This document shows, piece by piece, positions 35,741 through 61,516 of a stretch of 64,000 bases of DNA. The translations under genes and the position numbers were made by a program. Under the pieces are notes generated by a model. The model was given only the letters and a program-made list of their open reading frames with translations, had not been told where the DNA came from and did no database searches. Numbering within the stretch: the first letter of the stretch is position 1; the number at the start of each line of letters is the position of its first letter. The stretch is from Erinaceus europaeus (taxonomy: Eukaryota > Chordata > Mammalia > Eulipotyphla > Erinaceidae), in the NCBI RefSeq assembly GCF_950295315.1, contig NC_080172.1, positions 115,574,989-115,638,988 on the forward strand, in the 5' to 3' direction.

Positions 35741-36107
35741 TTTTTGGTTTTTTTTTTTTTTTTGGCCTCCACTGCTGGGGCTCAGTGCCTGCACCATGAA
35801 TCCACCGCTCCTGGAGGCTTTAACAATTTTTTTTTATATTTATTTATTTTCCCTTTTGTTGCCCTTGTTGTTTTATTGTTGTAGTTATTATTGTTGTTGA
35901 TGTCATCATTGTTGGATAGGACAGAGAGAAATGGGAGAGAGGAGGGGAAGACAGAGAGAGGGAGAGAAAGATAGACACCTGCAGACCTGCTTCACCGCCT
36001 GGGAAGCGACTCCCCTGCAGGTGGGGAGCTGGGGGCTTGAACCGGGATCCTTACGCCGGTCCTTGTGCTTTGTGCCACATGTACTTAACCCGCTGCACTA
36101 CTGCCCA
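35741..36107 (-). mobile_element. SINE family A, long form
   Basis: From a T run and TTTGGCCTCCACTGCTGG to CACTACTGCCCAATT. Confidence 0.85.
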
Positions 36108-36113
36108 ATTTGC

Positions 36114-36390
36114 GGGGGCTTTTATTTTTCTTTTGTTGCCCTTGTTGTTTTATCCTTGTTGTGGTTATTATTGTCATTGTTATTGTTGTTGGATAGGACA
36201 GAGAGAAATGGAGAGAGGAGGGGAAGACAGAGAGGGGGAGAGAAAGACAGACACCTGCAGACCTGCTTCACCGCCGGTGAAGCGACTCCCCTGCAGGTGG
36301 GGAGCCGGGGCCTCGAACCAGGATCCTTACACCGGTCCTCGCGCTTTGCGCCACCTGCACTTAACCCATTGTGCTACCGCCCGACCCCTA
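36114..36390 (-). mobile_element. SINE family A
   Basis: Ends GCTACCGCCCGACCCC, 97 bp from the first SPATA21 exon's donor. Confidence 0.85.
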
Positions 36391-50631: not shown

Positions 50632-50723
50632 ATGGAGGAGAGCGGCTACGAGTCGGTGCTGTGCGTCAAGCCCGAGGTTCACGTCTACCGCATCCCGCCG
50701 CGGGCCACCAACCGCGGCTACCG
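50632..50723 (+). CDS. NECAP2: NECAP2 exon 1 (start codon)
   Basis: NECAP2 (adaptin ear-binding coat-associated protein 2) is a cytosolic adaptor acting with AP-1/AP-2 clathrin coats in endocytic recycling. Its PH-like NECAP (PHear) domain occupies about the first 130 residues and WxxF-type ear-binding motifs sit at the C-terminus. This exon gives [30 protein letters not shown] and two bases of Arg, with donor CCG|GTGAGC. The five exons seen here encode exactly 163 codons in phase; the C-terminal exons lie beyond the window. ATG choice follows the conserved [11 protein letters not shown] start. Confidence 0.97.
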
Positions 50724-50896
50724 GTGAGCGCGCCTCCCCGCCGCCCGGACGCCGCGGCGGGCCCGGGGAGGAAGAGGCCAGGGCCGGCCTGGGGGCTGGG
50801 TGGTTACTGATCATTGCTGCTGTTGTTGTTGTTGTTGTGGTTGTGGACTGTGAGGTCACGGGGTGCGGTGCCGCCGGTTCCCGCCCCCGAGCCCCG

Positions 50897-51510
50897 CGTC
50901 GCGCCCTCCGCTGCCGCTGCGACCTGTTCGCTCTCCGCCTTGCTTCTCGTTATTGTTATTATTGTTGTTATTGTTGTTATTGTAATTGCTTGCTATTATT
51001 ATTATTATTATTACCGTGTCGCGCCCTCCGCTGCCGCTGCGACCGGTTCGCTCTCCGCCTTGCTTCTCGTTATTGTTATTATTGTTGTTATTGTAATTGC
51101 TTGCTATTATTATTATTATTATTATTACCGTGTCGCGCCCTCCGCTGCCGCTGCGACCGGTTCGCTCTCCGCCTTGCTTCTCGTTATTGTTATTATTATT
51201 GTTATTGTTTGTTGTTATTATTATTATTATTATTACCGTGTCGCGCCCTCCGCTGCCGCTGCGACCTGTTCGCTCTCCGCCTTGCTTCTCGTTATTATTA
51301 TTGTTGTTGTTGTTATTACCGTGTCGCGCCCTCCGCTGCCGCTGCGACCTGTTCGCTCTCCGCCTTGCTTCTCGTTATTGTTATTATTGTTGTTATTGTT
51401 ATTATTATTATTATTACCGTGTCGCGCCCTCCGCTGCCGCTGCGACCCGTTCGCTCTCCGCCTTGCTTCCCGTTATTATTATTGTTGTTGTTATTATTAT
51501 TATTATTTTT
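50897..51510. repeat. Composite minisatellite, six units of GC core plus TTR tail
   Basis: A GC-rich core of about 55 bp (GTCGCGCCCTCCGCTGCCGC ... CGCCTTGCTTCTCGTT) starts at 50898, 51018, 51132, 51240, 51323 and 51421. Each core is followed by ATT/GTT triplets of varying length, so the period shrinks from 120 to 83 bp. Lies in NECAP2 intron 1 just beyond the CpG island. Confidence 0.95.
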
Positions 51511-52361: not shown

Positions 52362-55300
52362 TCACCATTTTTTACAGCTGAGTAGTATTCCATTGTGTAT
52401 AGACCACAACTTGCTCAGCCACTCATCTGTTGTTGGACACCTGGGTTGCTTCCAGGTTTTGGCTATTACAAATTGTGCTGCCAAGAACATATGTGTACAC
52501 AGATCTTTTTGGATGGATGTGTTGGGTTCCTTAGGATATATCCCCAGGAGAGGAATTGCAGGATCATAGGGTAGGTCCATTTCTAGCCTTCTGAGAGTTC
52601 TCCAGACTGTTCTCCACAGAGGTTGGACCAATTTGCATTCCCACCAGCAGTGCAGGAGGGTTCCTTTGACCCCACACCCTCTCCAGCATTTGCTGCTGCT
52701 ACCTTTTCTGATGTATGACATTCTCACAGGAGTGAAGTGGTACCTCGTTGTTGTCTTGATTTGCATTTCTCTGACAATCAGAGACTTGGAGCATTTTTTC
52801 ATGTGTTTCTCGGCCTTTTGGATCTCTTCTGTGGTAAATATTCTGTCCAGTTCCTCCCCCCATTTTTGGATGGGGTTATTTGTTGTCTTGTTGTTGAGTC
52901 TGGTAAGCTCTTTATATATGTTGATTATTAAACTCTTATCTGATGTATGGCATGTAAAGATCTTCTCCCATTCTGTGAGGGGTCTCTTGGTTTGGGTAGT
53001 GGTTTCTTTTGCTGTGAAGAAGCTTTTTAATTTGATGTAGTCCCATAGGTTTATACTTGCCTTAGTCTTCCTTGTAATTGGATTCGTTTCATTGAAAATG
53101 TCTTTAAAATTTATGCGGAAAAAAGTTCTTCCAATATTTTCCTCTAAGTATCTGATAGTTTCTGGTCTAACATCCAAGTCCTTGATCCACTTGGAATTTA
53201 CTTTTGTATTTGGTGAAATACAGTGATTCAGCTTCATTCTTCTGCATGTTTCAACCCATTGTTTCCAACACCATTTGTTGAAGAGACTCTGCTTTCCCCA
53301 TGTAATAGTCTGGGCCCCTTTGTCAAAGATGAGATGTCCATAGGTGTGGGGCCTCACTTCTGGGCTCTCAATTCTATTCCACTGGTCAGTGTGTCTGTTC
53401 ATGTTCCAGTACCAAGCAGTTTTGATGACAATGGCCCTATAATACAGTTTGAGACCTGGCAGTGTGATGCCTCCGGTTCTGTTCTTTTTTCTCAAGATTG
53501 TTTTGGCAATTCTAGGTCTTTTCTGGTTCCAGATAAACATTTGTAGCATTTTTTCTATTCTCCTAAAAAATGTGCTTGGGATCTTGATGGGGATAGCATT
53601 AAATTTGTAGATGGCTCTGGGTAATATATTCATTTTGATGATGTTAATTCTTCCAACCCATGAACATGGAATATCTTTCCACTTCTTTGTGTCTTTTTCA
53701 ATTTCTTTGAGTAGTGACTCATAATTTTCAGTATACAAGTCTTTCACTTCTTTGGTTAGGTTTATTCCTAGATATTTTATTGTTTTTGTTGCTATAGAAA
53801 AAGGAACTGATTTCTGGATTTCAATTTCTTCTAACTTAGTGTTTGCATAGAGGAATGCCACTGACTTTTGAATGTTAATTTTATAGCCTGTCACATTACT
53901 GTATTGCCTGATGATTTCCAAAAGCTTCTTGCTAGATTCCTTAGGTTTTTCCATGTATACTATCATGTCATCTGCAAATAAGGAGAGTTTGACTTCTTCT
54001 CTTCCAATCTGTATGCCTTTAATTCCTTGCTCCTGCCTGATTGCTATGGCAAGAACTTCCAACACTATGTTGAATAGTAATGGTGATAGTGGGCAGCCCT
54101 GTCTAGTATCTGATCTGAGGGGAAAGGCTTCCAGTTTTTCACCATTGAGTATGATGTTGGCTGTAGGTTTGCTATATATAGACTCCACTATCTTCAGGAA
54201 TTTTCCATCTATTCCCACTTTTTGTAGTGTTTTGATCATAAAGGGATGTTGTATTTTGTCAAAGGCTTTCTCTGCATCTATTGATATGACCATGTGGTTT
54301 TTGGTCTTGCTTTTGTTGATGTGGTGGATCACATTGATTGACTTACGTATATTAAACCAACCTTGCATGCCTGGGATAAACCCCACTTGGTCATGATGAG
54401 CAATCTTTTTGATATACTGCTGTATCCGGTTGGCTAGAATTTTGTTCAATATTTTCGCATCTATGTTCATCAGAGATATTGGTCTGTAGTTTTCTTTTTT
54501 GGTTGTGTCCCTGTCTGCTTTTGGTATCAGGGTGATGTTGGCTTCATAGAAGCTGGCAGGGAGTATTCCAGTGTCTTCAGTCTTCTGGAAGACTTTTAAA
54601 AGTAGAGGTATTAGTTCTTATTTGAAAGTTTTGTAGAATTCATTTGTAAAACCATCTGGTCCAGGACTTTTATTTTTGGGAAGATTTTTGATAACTGTTT
54701 CAATTTCATTAGCTGTGATGGGCCTGTTCATGTTGTCCACTTCCTCTTTACTTAGTTTTGGAAGTTGGTAGGTATCTAGGAAATCATTCATTTCTTCCAG
54801 GTTCTCTAACTTGGTGGCATATAGTTGTTCATAGAAGCCTCGCATGATATGTTGAATTTCTGCAGTGTCTGTTGTGATATCTCCTCTTTCATTTACTATC
54901 CGATTTATTTGGGTCTTCTGCCTTTTTTGTTTTGTGAGTCTGGCTAAAGGTTTGTCGATTTTGTTTACTCTTTCGAAGAACCAACATTTACTTTCATTGA
55001 TCTTTTGTATGGTTTTCCTATTCTCAGTGTTATTTCTTTCTGCCCTAACTTTAGTAATTTCTGTCCTTCTGGTTGCTTTAGGGTTCCTTTGTTGTTCTTC
55101 TTCTAGGTCCTTAAGATGTGCAATCAGGCTGTTTATTTGTGCCTTTTCTTGTTTCCTAATGTGTGCTTGTATAGCTATTAACTTCCCTCTTAGGACTGCT
55201 TTAGCTGTGTCCCAAATATTTTGATTGCTTGTGTCTTCATTTTCATTGAACTCTCGAAACATTTTGATTTCTTCCTTGATTTCCTCTTTGACCCAGAAGT

Positions 55301-56072
55301 TGTTAAGAAGTGTACTGTTGAGCTTCCACATTTTGGCACTGTTACTAATCTTTTGTTGATTGTTAAGTGTTAGTTTAATTCCACTGTGGTCTGAGAAGAT
55401 GCTTGGGATGATTTCAGTGCTCTTGAATTGGCTGATGCTGTCTTTGTGGCCTAACATATGGTCTGTCCTTGAGAATGATCCATGTGGATTTGAGTAAAAT
55501 GTGTATTCCAGTTTCTTGGGATGAATGACTCTGAAAATGTCCAATAGTTCTAGTTTATCTATCTCTTCATTTAGCTCCCTTATGTCTTTACTGATTTTCT
55601 GCCTGGATGATGTGTCAAGTTGAGATAGTGGGGTGTTGAAGTCCCCTACTATGATTGTGTTACTGTTAATATATTGCTGTAGCTCTTTCAGTAGAAGTTT
55701 GATGTATTTAGATGGCTTCTCATTGGGTGCATAGATATTAATAATTGTTAAGTCCTCTTGATTGACTGATCCTCTGAGCATTAAGTAGTGTCCATTCCTA
55801 TCTTTTTTAATCTTATGTATTTTAAAGTCTATCATGTCAGATATGAGAATAGCTGTTCCTGCCCTTTTTTGTGGGCCGTTGGCTTGAATGATAGTTTTCC
55901 ATCCTTTCACTTTAAGTCTGTGTTTGTCTTGTTGCGTTAGGTGAGTTTCCTGTAGACAACATATTGTTGGGTTGTGTTTTCTGATCCATCTTCCTACTCT
56001 GTGTCTTTTAGTAGGTGAATTCAGGCCATTGACATTTATTGATATCAAAGATTGAAGATATTTTAACGCCAT
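52362..56072 (-). pseudogene. L1 ORF2 (endonuclease-reverse transcriptase), one internal stop
   Basis: 1,236 sense positions in one frame, broken only by TAA at 54620-54618 (codon 485). The first part has the apurinic endonuclease motifs [14 protein letters not shown] and SDHSGIKL. The second has the reverse transcriptase block with FADD ([13 protein letters not shown]) and a C-terminal Cys/His motif ([19 protein letters not shown]). No frameshift is seen. The stop falls just before the reverse transcriptase domain, so this copy should not make full-length ORF2p. Confidence 0.93.
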
Positions 56073-56128
56073 TCTTGTAGAGTTTTAGAGTGTTTTGATA
56101 TATGTTCTATTTGTGGTGGTCTGGTTGT

Positions 56129-57103
56129 TTATAGGAAACCTTTCAGAACTTCTTTCAGGGCAGGCTTGGTGATGGTTGCTTCCTTCAACTGTTGCTTGTC
56201 TGAGAAGGTTTTGATGCTTCCATCTAGTCTGAATGACAATCTAGCAGGATATAGTATTCTTGGCTGAAAGCCTTTCTCATTGAGCACTCGATAGATATCT
56301 TGCCATTCTCTTCTGGCCTGTAGTGTTTGTATGGAGAAGTCTGCTGCTAATCTTATGGGTTTTCCTTTGTAGGTGACTCTTTGTTTTTCTCTTGCAGCCT
56401 TGAGGATCCTTTCTTTATCCTTATTCCTTTCCAATCTAAGTATGACATGTCTTGGTGTCTTTAGGTCTGGGTTAATTCTGTTTGGGACCCTCTGGGCTTC
56501 TTGAATCTTTATGTCTTTGGTGTTGTCTAGACTAGAGAAATTTTCAGCTATTATGGCCTGGAGAACGCTTTCTTCCTCCCCTTCTCTTTCTTCCTCTGGT
56601 AAGCCAATAATGCGTATATTGTTTCTTTTGAAGTCATCCCATAGGACTCTGTTGTTGTTTTCAGCATCTGTTAATCTCTTTTTGAGATCTCTTACTTCTT
56701 TTTTAGTTGTCTCTAATTCATCCTCAATCTTGCTAATTCTGTCTTCAACCTCATTGATTCTATTCTCTCTGCCCTCTACTGCTTTCTGGAGTTCATCTAT
56801 TTTGTTGCCCTGCTCTGATACTGTTTTAGCTTGTTCAGCTAGTTGCCTTCTTAGCTCAGCAATTTCAGCTTTCAGCTCTCTAATAACCATGAGATTATTA
56901 GAATTTTCTTCCATATTCTCATTTGTTGTTCCTGCAGTTCTGATTACAATTTTTTCAAATTCTTTACTCACTCCTGTTATTATTTCCTTAGCTAATGTTT
57001 GGATGTTGAACTCGTTGTTTTGTGCTTCGCCCTCTGGAGGACTTTTAGCTGGACTCTTGTCCTGGTTCGAGTCTCCATTATTTTTTCTTGTTGTTTTAAC
57101 CAT
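56129..57103 (-). CDS. L1 ORF1 (RNA-binding chaperone), intact
   Basis: A 324-codon ORF with the ORF1p layout: a basic N-terminus (MVKTTRKNNGDSNQDK), a heptad coiled coil (ELKAEIAELRRQLAEQ through EVRDLKKRLTDAENNNRV), an RRM-like region (NNIRIIGLPEEEREGEEES) and a C-terminal domain (NPDLKTPRHVILRL; RRIEW-like RREWQDIYRVL). No stop or frameshift. Confidence 0.93.
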   Translation of the reverse strand: MVKTTRKNNGDSNQDKSPAKSPPEGEAQNNEFNIQTLAKEIITGVSKEFEKIVIRTAGTTNENMEENSNNLMVIRELKAEIAELRRQLAEQAKTVSEQGNKIDELQKAVEGRENRINEVEDRISKIEDELETTKKEVRDLKKRLTDAENNNRVLWDDFKRNNIRIIGLPEEEREGEEESVLQAIIAENFSSLDNTKDIKIQEAQRVPNRINPDLKTPRHVILRLERNKDKERILKAAREKQRVTYKGKPIRLAADFSIQTLQARREWQDIYRVLNEKGFQPRILYPARLSFRLDGSIKTFSDKQQLKEATITKPALKEVLKGFL

Positions 57104-57540
57104 TTTATATAAGTTAACAGTTTTTTCAATCCCTGAGTTGGAGTTCAGTGGTGTAAAAGCCTTTTTTTTTTTTTTTCCCCTGTAGGCTATGGGAGCCTGA
57201 GGGCTTTTAAACTATCAATAGGCTTCTTGGCTTAATCAATGACTCCTGACCAAGAGATAAAGCAGGGTGTGGCAGAGATAATCCAGTGGTTATGCAAAGA
57301 GACTTTCACAGCCCTTCAGCTATGCCACCGAGGTATAGGTCTTCTCCTGAGTTTCCCGGTTAGATCTCTGTCCCCTGGTGTCCCTCCCTGTCGCTGCTCC
57401 AGATTCTGAGGGTAGTAGCAATGGAGACTCAGAGTTGCACTTGGTGAGTCTCTGGGGAGTCCTCTCCTCCCTTCAGCTGTCCCCTTGTTGTGGAGCAGAC
57501 TGGAGGTGGTGTCTCAACTGATAAACTGCTGAACTGGTTT

Positions 57541-58624
57541 AGTGAGGACTAAACCAGTGTCCGGAGACGGGGAAGCGAGGACTAAACCAGTGTCTGGACA
57601 CGGGGGAGTGAGGACTAAACCAGTGTCCGGACACAGGGGAGTGAGGACTAAACCAGTGTCCAGAGACGGGGGAGCGAGGACTAAACCAGTGTCCGGACAC
57701 GGGGGAGCGAGGACTAAACCAGTGTCCTGGGATGAGCGAGGACTAAACCAGTGTCCAGACACGGGGGAGCGAGGACTAAACCAGTGCTAAACCAGTGTCC
57801 GGACACGGGGGAGTGAGGACTAAACCAGTGTCCGGACACGGGGGAGCGAGGACTAAACCAGTGTCCAGACACGGGAGAGCGAGGACTAAACCAGTGCTAA
57901 ACCAGTGTCCGGACACGGGGGAGCGAGGACTAAACCAGTGTCCAGACACGGGGGAGCGAGGACTAAACCAGTGTCCGGACACGGGGGAGTGAGGACTAAA
58001 CTAGTCTCCGGACACGGAGGAGCGAGGACTAAACCCGTGTCCGGAGACGGGGAGCGAGGACTAAACCAGTGTCCAGACACGGGGGAGTGAGGACTAAACC
58101 AGTGTCTGGAGACGGGGAGCGAGGACTAAACCAGTGTCCAGACACGGGGGAGTGAGGACTAAACCAGTGTCCGGAGACGGGGAGCGAGGACTAAACCAGT
58201 GTCCGGAGACGGGGAGTGAGGACTAAACCAGTGTCCGGAGACAGGGGAGCGAGGACTAAACCAGTGTCTGGAGACGGGGAGCGAGGACTAAACCAGTGTC
58301 CAGACACGGGGGAGTGAGGACTAAACCAGTGTCCGGAGACGGGGAGCGAGGACTAAACCAGTGTCCGGAGACGGGGAGTGAGGACTAAACCAGTGTCCGG
58401 AGACGGGGAGCGAGGACTAAACCAGTGTCCGGAGACAGGGGAGCGAGGACTAAACCAGTGTCCGGACACGGGGAGCGAGACTAAACCAGTGTCCGGACAC
58501 GGGGGAGCGAGACTAAACCAGTGTCCGGAGACGGGGAGCGAGGACTAAACCAGTGTCCGGAGACGGGGGAGCGAGGACTAAACCAGTGTCCGGACACGGG
58601 GAGCGAGGACTAAACCAGTGTCCC
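57541..58624. repeat. About 33-unit tandem array (32-36-bp units) abutting the L1 5' end
   Basis: Unit GAGGACTAAACCAGTGTCC plus GGACACGGGGGAGC, with variants GGAGACGGGGAGC and AGACACGGGGGAGTG. Many units contain the 12-bp perfect palindrome GTGTCCGGACAC. The junction with the L1 leader carries an inverted repeat, ACTGGTTTAGT / ACTAAACCAGT. Whether it is L1 promoter sequence or an adjoining minisatellite is not certain. Confidence 0.95.
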
Positions 58625-58920: not shown

Positions 58921-59119
58921 AGTCCTGCACTTGCAGGCCCCACACACTGTCTGATGCGGGAATCCACAGGGACTGACGGACTGACTGACTGAGGTGCGGA
59001 TCCCGCGGGCCGCTCAGTGGCAGGGTCGCTGTGGCAGGTCGCGGGGCGTCTCGGACACGTTCGCTGCCCGGCCCCCCGCGTCCCGCACTCAGTCAGCGCC
59101 TCGTCCTTTGTCCCCTCAG

Positions 59120-59220
59120 GGCCGCGGAGTGGCAGCTGGACCAGCCGTCCTGGAGCGGCCGGCTGAGGATCACCTCACAGGGGCAGGCGGCCTACATCAA
59201 GCTGGAAGACAGGACCTCAG
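59120..59220 (+). CDS. NECAP2: NECAP2 exon 2
   Basis: The acceptor is TCCCCTCAG|GGCC and the donor is CCTCAG|GTACAG. It encodes (R)[33 protein letters not shown](G), in the NECAP PH-like domain. Almost identical to the mammalian protein, with S/Q substitutions at ITSQGQ. Confidence 0.96.
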
Positions 59221-59225
59221 GTACA

Positions 59226-59400
59226 GCCGGGCGGCGGGTTAAGCGCACTTGACACTAAGCAAGGACCGGCGTGAGGATCCCGGTTCTTGCCCCAGCTCCC
59301 CACCTGCAGGGAGTCGCTTCCCAGGCGGTGCAGCAGGTCTGCAGGGGTCTGTCTTTCTCTCCCCGTCTGTCTCCCCTGCTGTCTGCATGTCCCTCTGTCC
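59226..59400 (+). mobile_element. SINE family A starting 5 bp after the exon 2 donor
   Basis: CCGGGCGGCGGGTTAAGCGC head follows GTACAG directly. The B-box region is degenerate (CGGTTCTTGCCCC). Its pyrimidine-rich body leads into the minisatellite. Confidence 0.8.
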
Positions 59401-59904
59401 TGTCCAGCACCGGCCGACTCACCGGCCTGTGTCTGTGTCTGCAGGGGAGCTGCCGTCTGTCTCCCCTGCTGTCTGCATGTCCCTCTGTCCTGTCCAGCAC
59501 CGGCCGACTCACCGGCCTGTGTCCGTGTCTGCAGGGGAGCTGCCGTCTGTCTCCCCTGCTGTCTGCATGTCCCTCTGTCCTGTCCAGCACCGGCCCGACT
59601 CACCGGCCTGTGTCTGTGTCTGCAGGGGAGCTGCCGTCTGTCTCCCCTGCTGTCTGCATGTCCCTCTGTCCTGTCCAGCACCGGCCGACTCACCGGCCTG
59701 TGTCTGTGTCTGCAGGGGAGCTGCTGTCTGTCTCCCCTGCTGTCTGCATGTCCCTCTGTCCTGTCCAGCACCGGCCCGACTCACCGACCCGTGTCTGTGT
59801 CTGCAGGGGAGCTGCCGTCTGTCTCCCCTGCTGTCTGCATGTCCCTCTGTCCTGTCCAGCACCGGCCGACTCACCGGCCTGTGTCCGTGTCTGCAGGGGA
59901 GCTG
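59365..59904. repeat. NECAP2: 90/91-bp minisatellite carrying copies of the exon 3 splice acceptor
   Basis: Each unit joins a SINE tail segment (CCGTCTGTCTCCCCTGCTGT ... CCTCTGTCCTGTCCAGCAC) to the native intron end (CACCGGCCTGTGTCTGTG) and TCTGCAG|GGGAGCTG, the acceptor plus the first eight exon 3 bases. Acceptor copies place a potential exon start at 59445, 59535, 59626, 59716 and 59807; the true one is 59897. Confidence 0.95.
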
Positions 59905-60001
59905 TTCGCGCAGGCGCCGGTCGAGCAGTTTCCGGGCGCGGCGGTGGAGAGCGTGGCGGACTCCAGCAGGTTCTTCGTGATCCGCGTGCAGGACGGCAGC
60001 G
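59897..60001 (+). CDS. NECAP2: NECAP2 exon 3
   Basis: The acceptor is GTGTCTGCAG|GGGAG and the donor is GGCAGCG|GTGCGT. It encodes (G)[34 protein letters not shown](G), in the PH-like domain. The start at 59897 is chosen because FAQAP continues only from this copy of the repeated acceptor. Confidence 0.95.
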
Positions 60002-60084
60002 GTGCGTGGGCGGGCCGAGCCTCCTCCCCGAGGGCCCCCGGCAGCGCCCCTCGGCCGCCCTCCTGACCGTGCGTTTGTCCCCAG

Positions 60085-60166
60085 GGCGGCGGGCGTTCAT
60101 CGGCATCGGCTTCGCAGACCGCGGCGACGCCTTTGACTTCAACGTGGCGCTGCAGGACCATTTCAA
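60085..60166 (+). CDS. NECAP2: NECAP2 exon 4
   Basis: The acceptor is TGTCCCCAG|GGCGG and the donor is TTTCAA|GTGAGC; intron 3 is only 83 bp. It encodes (G)[26 protein letters not shown](K), the conserved core of the NECAP domain. Confidence 0.96.
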
Positions 60167-60207
60167 GTGAGCGCGTCCGGGGCCGGGGTCCGGGGTCCGT
60201 GCCTCTT

Positions 60208-60505
60208 TTTTTTTTTTTTATTTGTTTTCCCTTTTTTGTTGCCCTTGCTGTTTTACTGTTGTAGTTATTGTTGTTATTGACGTTGTCGTCGTTGGCTAGG
60301 ACAGAGAGAAATGGAGAGAGGAGGGGAAGACAGAGAGGGGAAGAGAGAGACAGACACCTGCAGACCTGCTTCACCGCCTGTGAAGCGACTCCCCTGCAGG
60401 TGGGGAGCCGGGGGCTCGAACCGGGATCCTTACGCCGGTCCTTGCACCGGTCCTTGCGCTTTGCGCCACCTGCGCTTAACCCGCTGCGCCACCGCCCGAC
60501 TCCCT
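60208..60505 (-). mobile_element. SINE family A
   Basis: Near-consensus; the GCACCGGTCCTTGC segment is duplicated (60438-60460). Confidence 0.88.
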
Positions 60506-61407: not shown

Positions 61408-61516
61408 GTGGGTGAGACAGCAGTGTGAATTTGCAAAGCAAGCCCAGGACCCAGACCGAGGCCCCAAGCTGGACCTGGGTTTCAAGGAAGGCCAGACCAT
61501 CAAGCTCAACATCGCG
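61408..61516 (+). CDS. NECAP2: NECAP2 exon 5
   Basis: The acceptor is TGTTCTGCAG|GTGGG and the donor is ATCGCG|GTGAGT. It encodes (K)[36 protein letters not shown], the end of the PH-like domain. It exits at phase 0; the remaining exons are outside the window. Confidence 0.96.

Follow-up and report, generated by a model that had tools for sequence, protein, structure and literature searches.

A minisatellite in intron 2 of hedgehog NECAP2 carries the exon 3 acceptor in each of its six units

Which 3′ splice site is used when the genuine acceptor of an exon is preceded by five tandem copies of itself? The choice among identical 3′ splice sites has long been studied, usually with engineered genes. 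The window analysed here, the whole 64,000-nt stretch of the Erinaceus europaeus genome, contains a minisatellite at the end of NECAP2 intron 2 that offers a natural test of this choice, with six near-equal sites placed 224 to 676 nt from the donor in a conserved gene. Should the copied acceptors (hereafter decoys, named by the first base after their AG) be silent, the locus would show how a gene survives the growth of a repeat through its own splice site; should they be used, the repeat number would set the dosage or the isoform of NECAP2. The explanation that we put forward, with about an even chance of being right, is that the minisatellite is young and that the true site is mainly used, aided by exon definition and by hairpins over the decoys.

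Results

Gene and array

The gene carrying the array is NECAP2 on the + strand, with GT donors and AG acceptors throughout exons 1–5 (Table 1). The 163-residue product of these exons matches the PDB NECAP2 chain 6owo_N over its full length (E 3.9e-99), and 148 of the 163 residues are identical to those of the human NECAP2 record P0005. A human NECAP2 query gave no convincing match to exons beyond exon 5 in the window among the 40 rows listed, and the gene looks intact within the reach of the window. No Rfam family matched positions 59000–60500 at the gathering score. A structure model of shrew NECAP2 (P0034, built on a 25-sequence alignment) had a mean pLDDT of 35.5 and was left unused.

Tandem Repeats Finder (TRF) delimits the array at 59363–59904, with a period of 90, 6.0 copies, 97% matches and a score of 1031. 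The first-pass annotation had described six tandem units of 90 or 91 bp in NECAP2, each with the acceptor followed by 8 bases of exon 3. The gene identity agrees with the exon structure and the whole-length match to 6owo_N, and the units are found both by TRF and as six occurrences of TCTGCAGGGGAGCTG on the + strand of the window. The distances of the decoys from the true site (452, 362, 271, 181, and 90 nt) were likewise recovered, whereas the start of the array, previously placed at 59365, has to be moved to the TRF boundary.

Table 1 Features of the NECAP2 region discussed in the text (positions in the window)
Feature	Position	Strand	Remark
NECAP2 exon 1, coding part	50632..50723	+	GT donor
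NECAP2 exon 2	59120..59220	+	donor GTACAG at 59221
SINE copy	59231..59412	+	pyrimidine-rich 3′ end forms the first ~50 bases of unit 1; blastn of 59221–59470 against the window
Six-unit minisatellite	59363..59904	+	NECAP2 intron 2, extends 8 bases into exon 3
Unit 1, 90 bp	59363..59452	+	decoy acceptor 59445, offset 452, premature stop in exon 3
Unit 2, 90 bp	59453..59542	+	decoy 59535, offset 362, premature stop in exon 3
Unit 3, 91 bp, extra C	59543..59633	+	decoy 59626, offset 271, premature stop in exon 4
Unit 4, 90 bp	59634..59723	+	decoy 59716, offset 181, premature stop in exon 4
Unit 5, 91 bp, extra C	59724..59814	+	decoy 59807, offset 90, in frame, +30 residues
Unit 6, 90 bp	59815..59904	+	true exon 3 acceptor, first exon base 59897
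Six SINE-derived acceptor-like CAGs	first base after: 59408, 59498, 59588, 59679, 59769, 59860	+	higher tract score than the true site; the sole yUnAy motif of each unit lies downstream
Predicted junction hairpin, first of five	59441..59469	+	GCAG/GGGAG against CTCCCCTGC in the following unit; loop of 11 nt
Predicted junction hairpins, other four	starts 59531, 59622, 59712, 59803	+	9-bp stem over the decoy AG
NECAP2 exon 3	59897..60001	+	105 nt, phase 1-1
NECAP2 exon 4	60085..60166	+	GT/AG borders
NECAP2 exon 5	61408..61516	+	GT/AG borders

The units are closely alike. Units 1 and 4 are identical, as are units 2 and 6; units 3 and 5 each have one added C, and unit 5 differs from unit 1 by three substitutions. 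The substitution between units averages 1.7% over the 15 pairs. The neutral rate in mammals is about 2.2e-9 per site per year, and at that rate, assuming no homogenisation, the array would be a few million years old; it is thus probably young, judging from the sequence divergence.

Origin of the unit

The composition of the unit was examined by blastn with positions 59221–59470 as the query and the window as the subject. Among the 45 of 77 matches listed, those outside the array and other than the query itself all belong to one abundant SINE, which we take to be tRNA-type. These matches end at or before 59412, and nearly always start at 59231 or later, with single ones at 59225 and 59230. Bases 1 to about 48–50 of the unit are therefore SINE, and the ~42 that follow belong to the native gene, as the last part of intron 2 and 8 bases of exon 3. 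The motif CTCAC, 24 nt before the exon-like base, is the sole yUnAy branch-point motif in each unit (six in the array). Since the branch point, the pyrimidine tract, and the AG are native and lie within every unit, the full native 3′ splice site has been copied.

The first-pass annotation had each unit take its pyrimidine-rich tract from SINE sequence, and this holds in part. The SINE does supply pyrimidines and a second set of CAGs, but the blastn boundaries place the copied branch point, tract, and AG in the native part. The SINE CAG in each unit lies 37–38 nt upstream of the copied acceptor, and its tract scores higher by acceptor weights (9.5, against 7.23–7.75 for the copied acceptors). 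No yUnAy motif is found upstream of these CAGs, either within the unit or in 59300–59410. Splicing at 59408, 59498, or 59588 would preserve the frame and meet no stop, unlike splicing at 59679, 59769, or 59860. The array differs from SINE exonisation in that the competing signal is copied from the native acceptor and not from the SINE; it also differs from NAGNAG-type tandem acceptors, which lie a few bases apart and share one branch point, in that neighbouring sites are separated by 90–91 bp and every site has a branch-point motif of its own.

Equality of the sites and consequences for the reading frame

Across the 53 nt compared, decoy 59535 shows no difference from the true site, and decoys 59445 and 59716 agree with it at 52 positions. 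Ranking by acceptor weights does not separate the sites (decoys 7.23–7.75, true site 7.23) and was retained only as a statement of equality; 399 of the 9814 AGs in the window score at least 7.23. The best donor-like GT inside the array agrees with the consensus at 5 of 9 positions.

The sites differ in position. The exon 2 donor is 224 nt from the first decoy and 676 nt from the true site, and intron 3 is 83 nt long; in a model allele of one unit, intron 2 would be 224 nt. Splicing to a decoy would extend the exon to 195–557 nt, in comparison with 105 nt for the true exon 3.

The reading frames were recomputed, and the earlier reading of decoy 59807 as a source of a 30-residue in-frame insert without a stop, with a frameshift at each of the other four decoys, is confirmed. 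The 90 nt added at 59807 keep the frame open through exon 5. With acceptors 59716 and 59626 (offsets 181 and 271), translation would stop in exon 4, leaving 139 nt to the end of exon 5. With acceptors 59535 and 59445 (offsets 362 and 452), it would stop in exon 3, and the exon 4/5 junction would lie 103 nt further on. The usual rule for nonsense-mediated decay (NMD) sets a distance of 50–55 nt, by which the frameshifting products would be NMD targets. It should be noted that the array is free of stops in all three + frames, which is unsurprising because its A content is 7.9%. Four of the five decoys shift the frame because units 3 and 5 each gained one C; units all of 90 bp would put every copied acceptor in frame.

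Protein records at the exon 2/3 junction

A protein search among cluster representatives, with NECAP2 extended by the 30 residues as the query, had 1382 matches; the analysis covered the best 120. Among these best 120 of 1382, the exon 2/3 junction is plain in 105 records and carries an insertion in 2, and 13 do not fit the pattern. None of the seven peptides encoded by the array occurs in the best 120 of 1382 matches, and no hedgehog is recognisable among the listed names, which are truncated; the absence of the extended isoform is therefore weak evidence. The two insertions, of 25–26 residues, are in the bird records P0056 and P0070 and lie exactly at the exon 2/3 junction of NECAP2. They may be annotation artefacts. 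The top-scoring match, P0001, was set aside, as it has no insertion at the junction and repeats a later stretch of NECAP2 instead.

Predicted structure around the acceptors

The position of each decoy AG relative to the next unit should be noted. At all five unit-unit junctions, a stem of nine perfect pairs covers the AG. Downstream of the true site, CTCCCCTGC does not recur before 60389, so that the true site has no near partner on that side. In local folds with four windows, the cost of opening the CAG is 3.6–7.1 kcal/mol for the decoys and 0.8–1.1 kcal/mol for the true site; the corresponding cost for the acceptors of exons 2, 4, and 5 is 1.2–2.5. When the 148 YAG sites in 58.0–62.5 kb are ordered by closure (120-nt window), the decoys take ranks 1, 2, 3, 4, and 7, while the true site is equalled or exceeded in closure by 79% of the sites.

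The same contrast appears in model alleles of one to eight identical units. The last site costs 0.7–1.1, and the earlier sites cost 5.7–6.3 in the 120-nt window and 2.6–6.6 in the 250-nt window. In alleles of two to eight units, the most open site is always the last one. When the 48-nt SINE part was shuffled in three-unit models, the observed contrast of 4.80 was reached in 1 of 400 shuffles. Shuffling the unit body 2000 times produced an AG-spanning stem of at least nine pairs in 24 cases. Both counts are uncorrected for the fact that the junction stem had been spotted before the shuffle controls. Overall, the local folds at model copy numbers of 1–8 suggest a default in which the CAGs of the decoys are masked and that of the true site is accessible, which points away from a tunable array.

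Several predictions point the other way. In global folds of three pieces, the AGs of all six sites, the true site included, are paired at 0.98–1.00, and the junction stem forms at 0.005 to 1.0, varying with the decoy and the piece. Global folding was dropped as support for masking because all six AGs are paired. In three of the four windows, the decoys have more open pyrimidine tracts than the true site; in two of the four, the true site has the least open branch point. When the six bases around the junction are considered, the opening costs overlap (5.4–6.8 for the true site and 5.6–14.1 for the decoys), and in the widest window decoy 59807, at 5.6, is easier to open than the true site, at 6.8. 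The fold energy at the junction, −19.6, was equalled by 37 of 500 shuffles, and the fold at the true junction (−19.0) is nearly as stable, with its CAG outside the stem. Even after the stem was broken in silico, the decoys still cost 3.5–4.2, indicating that the stem explains only part of the closure. The SINE-part shuffles gave a mean contrast of 2.45, and all 400 were positive, indicating that composition alone does part of the closing. Given these models, we consider it rather less likely than not that masking is the main reason for the presumed use of the true site.

Discussion

Proposed explanation and published rules of site choice

In the explanation that we prefer, the minisatellite would have grown within the intron, starting from a segment in which the 3′ end of the SINE meets the end of intron 2 and 8 bases of exon 3. 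Every added unit brings a complete extra 3′ splice site, as observed in the sequence. The spliceosome most likely keeps mainly to the last, true site, and we are reasonably confident that this site predominates. It alone adjoins the real exon 3, a 105-nt exon beside an 83-nt intron. Each decoy CAG, as predicted by local folding, would be held in a strong hairpin made by the unit junction itself, through pairing of GCAG/GGGAG with the next CTCCCCTGC, while the true site lacks a close downstream pairing partner. Leaky use of the decoys would then give mRNA mostly targeted by NMD, and leaky use of 59807 would give NECAP2 with 30 additional residues between LEDRTSG and ELFAQ in the PH-like domain.

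The positions of the sites can be compared with published rules. According to the excerpted text of Carranza, Shenasa and Hertel (PMC9225289), the switch between intron definition and exon definition lies near 250 nt. The same excerpts state that the upstream one of two competing 3′ sites is preferred overall, strongly in short introns and to a significantly reduced extent in long ones; that, for 3′ sites, a long upstream intron with a short downstream intron acts like exon definition; and that smaller exons are preferred, as measured for 5′ sites (PMC9225289). The first decoy and the true site straddle the switch at about 250 nt, and the published rules are thus opposed here at near-equal sites. 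The upstream preference (PMC9225289) counts against our explanation, because it would favour the decoy nearest the donor (59445, at 224 nt).

Alternative explanations

The strongest alternative, which we regard as plausible though doubtful, is that the array is a neutral by-product. The decoys would be ignored as a plain result of exon definition, in which 59897 and the donor of exon 3 form a pair, and the hairpins would be incidental, arising from a C-rich SINE end near the GGGG start of the exon. The difference between an exon of 105 nt and decoy exons of 195–557 nt accords with such neutrality, as do, within the excerpts of PMC9225289, the preference for smaller exons (for 5′ sites) and the exon-definition-like behaviour of long upstream with short downstream introns. 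Decoys closed to some extent in 400 of 400 shuffles are also consistent with incidental hairpins; the observed contrast, however, exceeds that of 399 of the 400, and the intron ending at the first decoy, at 224 nt, is inside the intron-definition range. A further reading, which we hold to be unlikely, is that the minisatellite silences itself, each junction folding over its own decoy and only the last, partnerless unit staying open. If it were true, copies of a splice site could be gained or lost without change in the mRNA, and they would form a latent reservoir of in-frame and NMD isoforms, freed by melting of the stem or by protein binding.

The remaining readings are less probable still. 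Substantial use of decoy 59445, by proximity and by being transcribed first, would produce much mRNA with a premature stop and less protein, with NECAP1 possibly compensating. The 224-nt intron against 676 nt to the true site, the near-identity of the two sites (52 of 53 nt), and the premature stop with later junctions all suit this reading, as does the excerpted statement that the upstream 3′ preference is strongest under intron definition, with the switch near 250 nt (PMC9225289). We nevertheless think it improbable, because its CAG is predicted to be closed in the local folds, its exon would be 557 nt, and the conservation of exons 1–5 (148/163 against human P0005) makes the gene look constrained. 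It is more improbable again that the decoy at −90 gives a regular functional 30-residue isoform whose level is set by the copy number, the tunable array proposed in the first-pass annotation. The frame is open through exon 5; this decoy is the least closed one by CAG cost in two of the four windows (3.8 and 3.6, with 5.4 and 5.5 elsewhere); and the bird records P0056 and P0070 show an annotated length change at the same exon junction. The insert, however, would be array sequence within a conserved domain, no array-encoded peptide is present in the best 120 of 1382 matches, and the bird insertions are possibly annotation artefacts. An error of assembly, in the number of units or in the array as a whole, is the least probable of all, since the substitutions and the inserted C form a mosaic pattern not expected of a simple assembly duplication, and the flanking exon and SINE are intact.

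Relation to known splice-site minisatellites

The NECAP2 array is an acceptor-side variant of the splice-site minisatellites known on the donor side: it includes the genuine site of a conserved exon, its other units are sequence-equivalent to that site, and all of its sites are acceptors, unlike those of IFI6 and ABCA7. In IFI6, as described in PMC4526556 and listed among the references of PMC2572611, a minisatellite gives several donor sites, with repeat units serving as alternative splice sites. Both are tandem repeats with copies of a real splice site, but in the IFI6 excerpts the sites are donors and downstream units are reported to be used, whereas the NECAP2 sites are acceptors with branch point and tract, known from the sequence.

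The intron 18 VNTR of ABCA7, according to the excerpted report, contains the donor of exon 18, and splicing at a distance of one unit has been observed; its length is highly variable between people, and a one-unit shift adds one unit to the mRNA (PMC5954066). Like the NECAP2 array, it abuts an exon and contains its splice site. The excerpts give for ABCA7 a 25-bp unit on the donor side, 12 to about 427 units, and a measured usage and disease association (PMC5954066), while the NECAP2 array has a 90/91-bp unit on the acceptor side and is known from one sequence. A search of open-licence literature by titles and abstract openings found no other acceptor-side array, which is no proof of absence.

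The competition experiments of Reed and Maniatis, as described in the excerpts of PMC9225289, placed splice sites in competition in cis, with the choice made by position. Compared with that description, the NECAP2 case is natural and six-fold, with near-identical acceptors and decoys under predicted hairpins.

Other repeats in the window

Other repeats are present in and near the gene. In NECAP2 intron 1, a 33-bp minisatellite of ~33 copies occupies 57544–58623 and ends ~500 bp before exon 2. Another tandem array, at 50894–51499 (TRF periods 83–114), mixes a GC-rich piece with TTA/TTG runs; it starts ~170 bp after exon 1 and does not include the donor. Intron 1 also contains, at 54618–57211, two long minus-strand open frames of 488 and 360 residues from stop to stop, which presumably correspond to the start of LINE-1 ORF2 and to ORF1. 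At 35843–36367, a SINE-like sequence of 276 bp is present about twice, head to tail.
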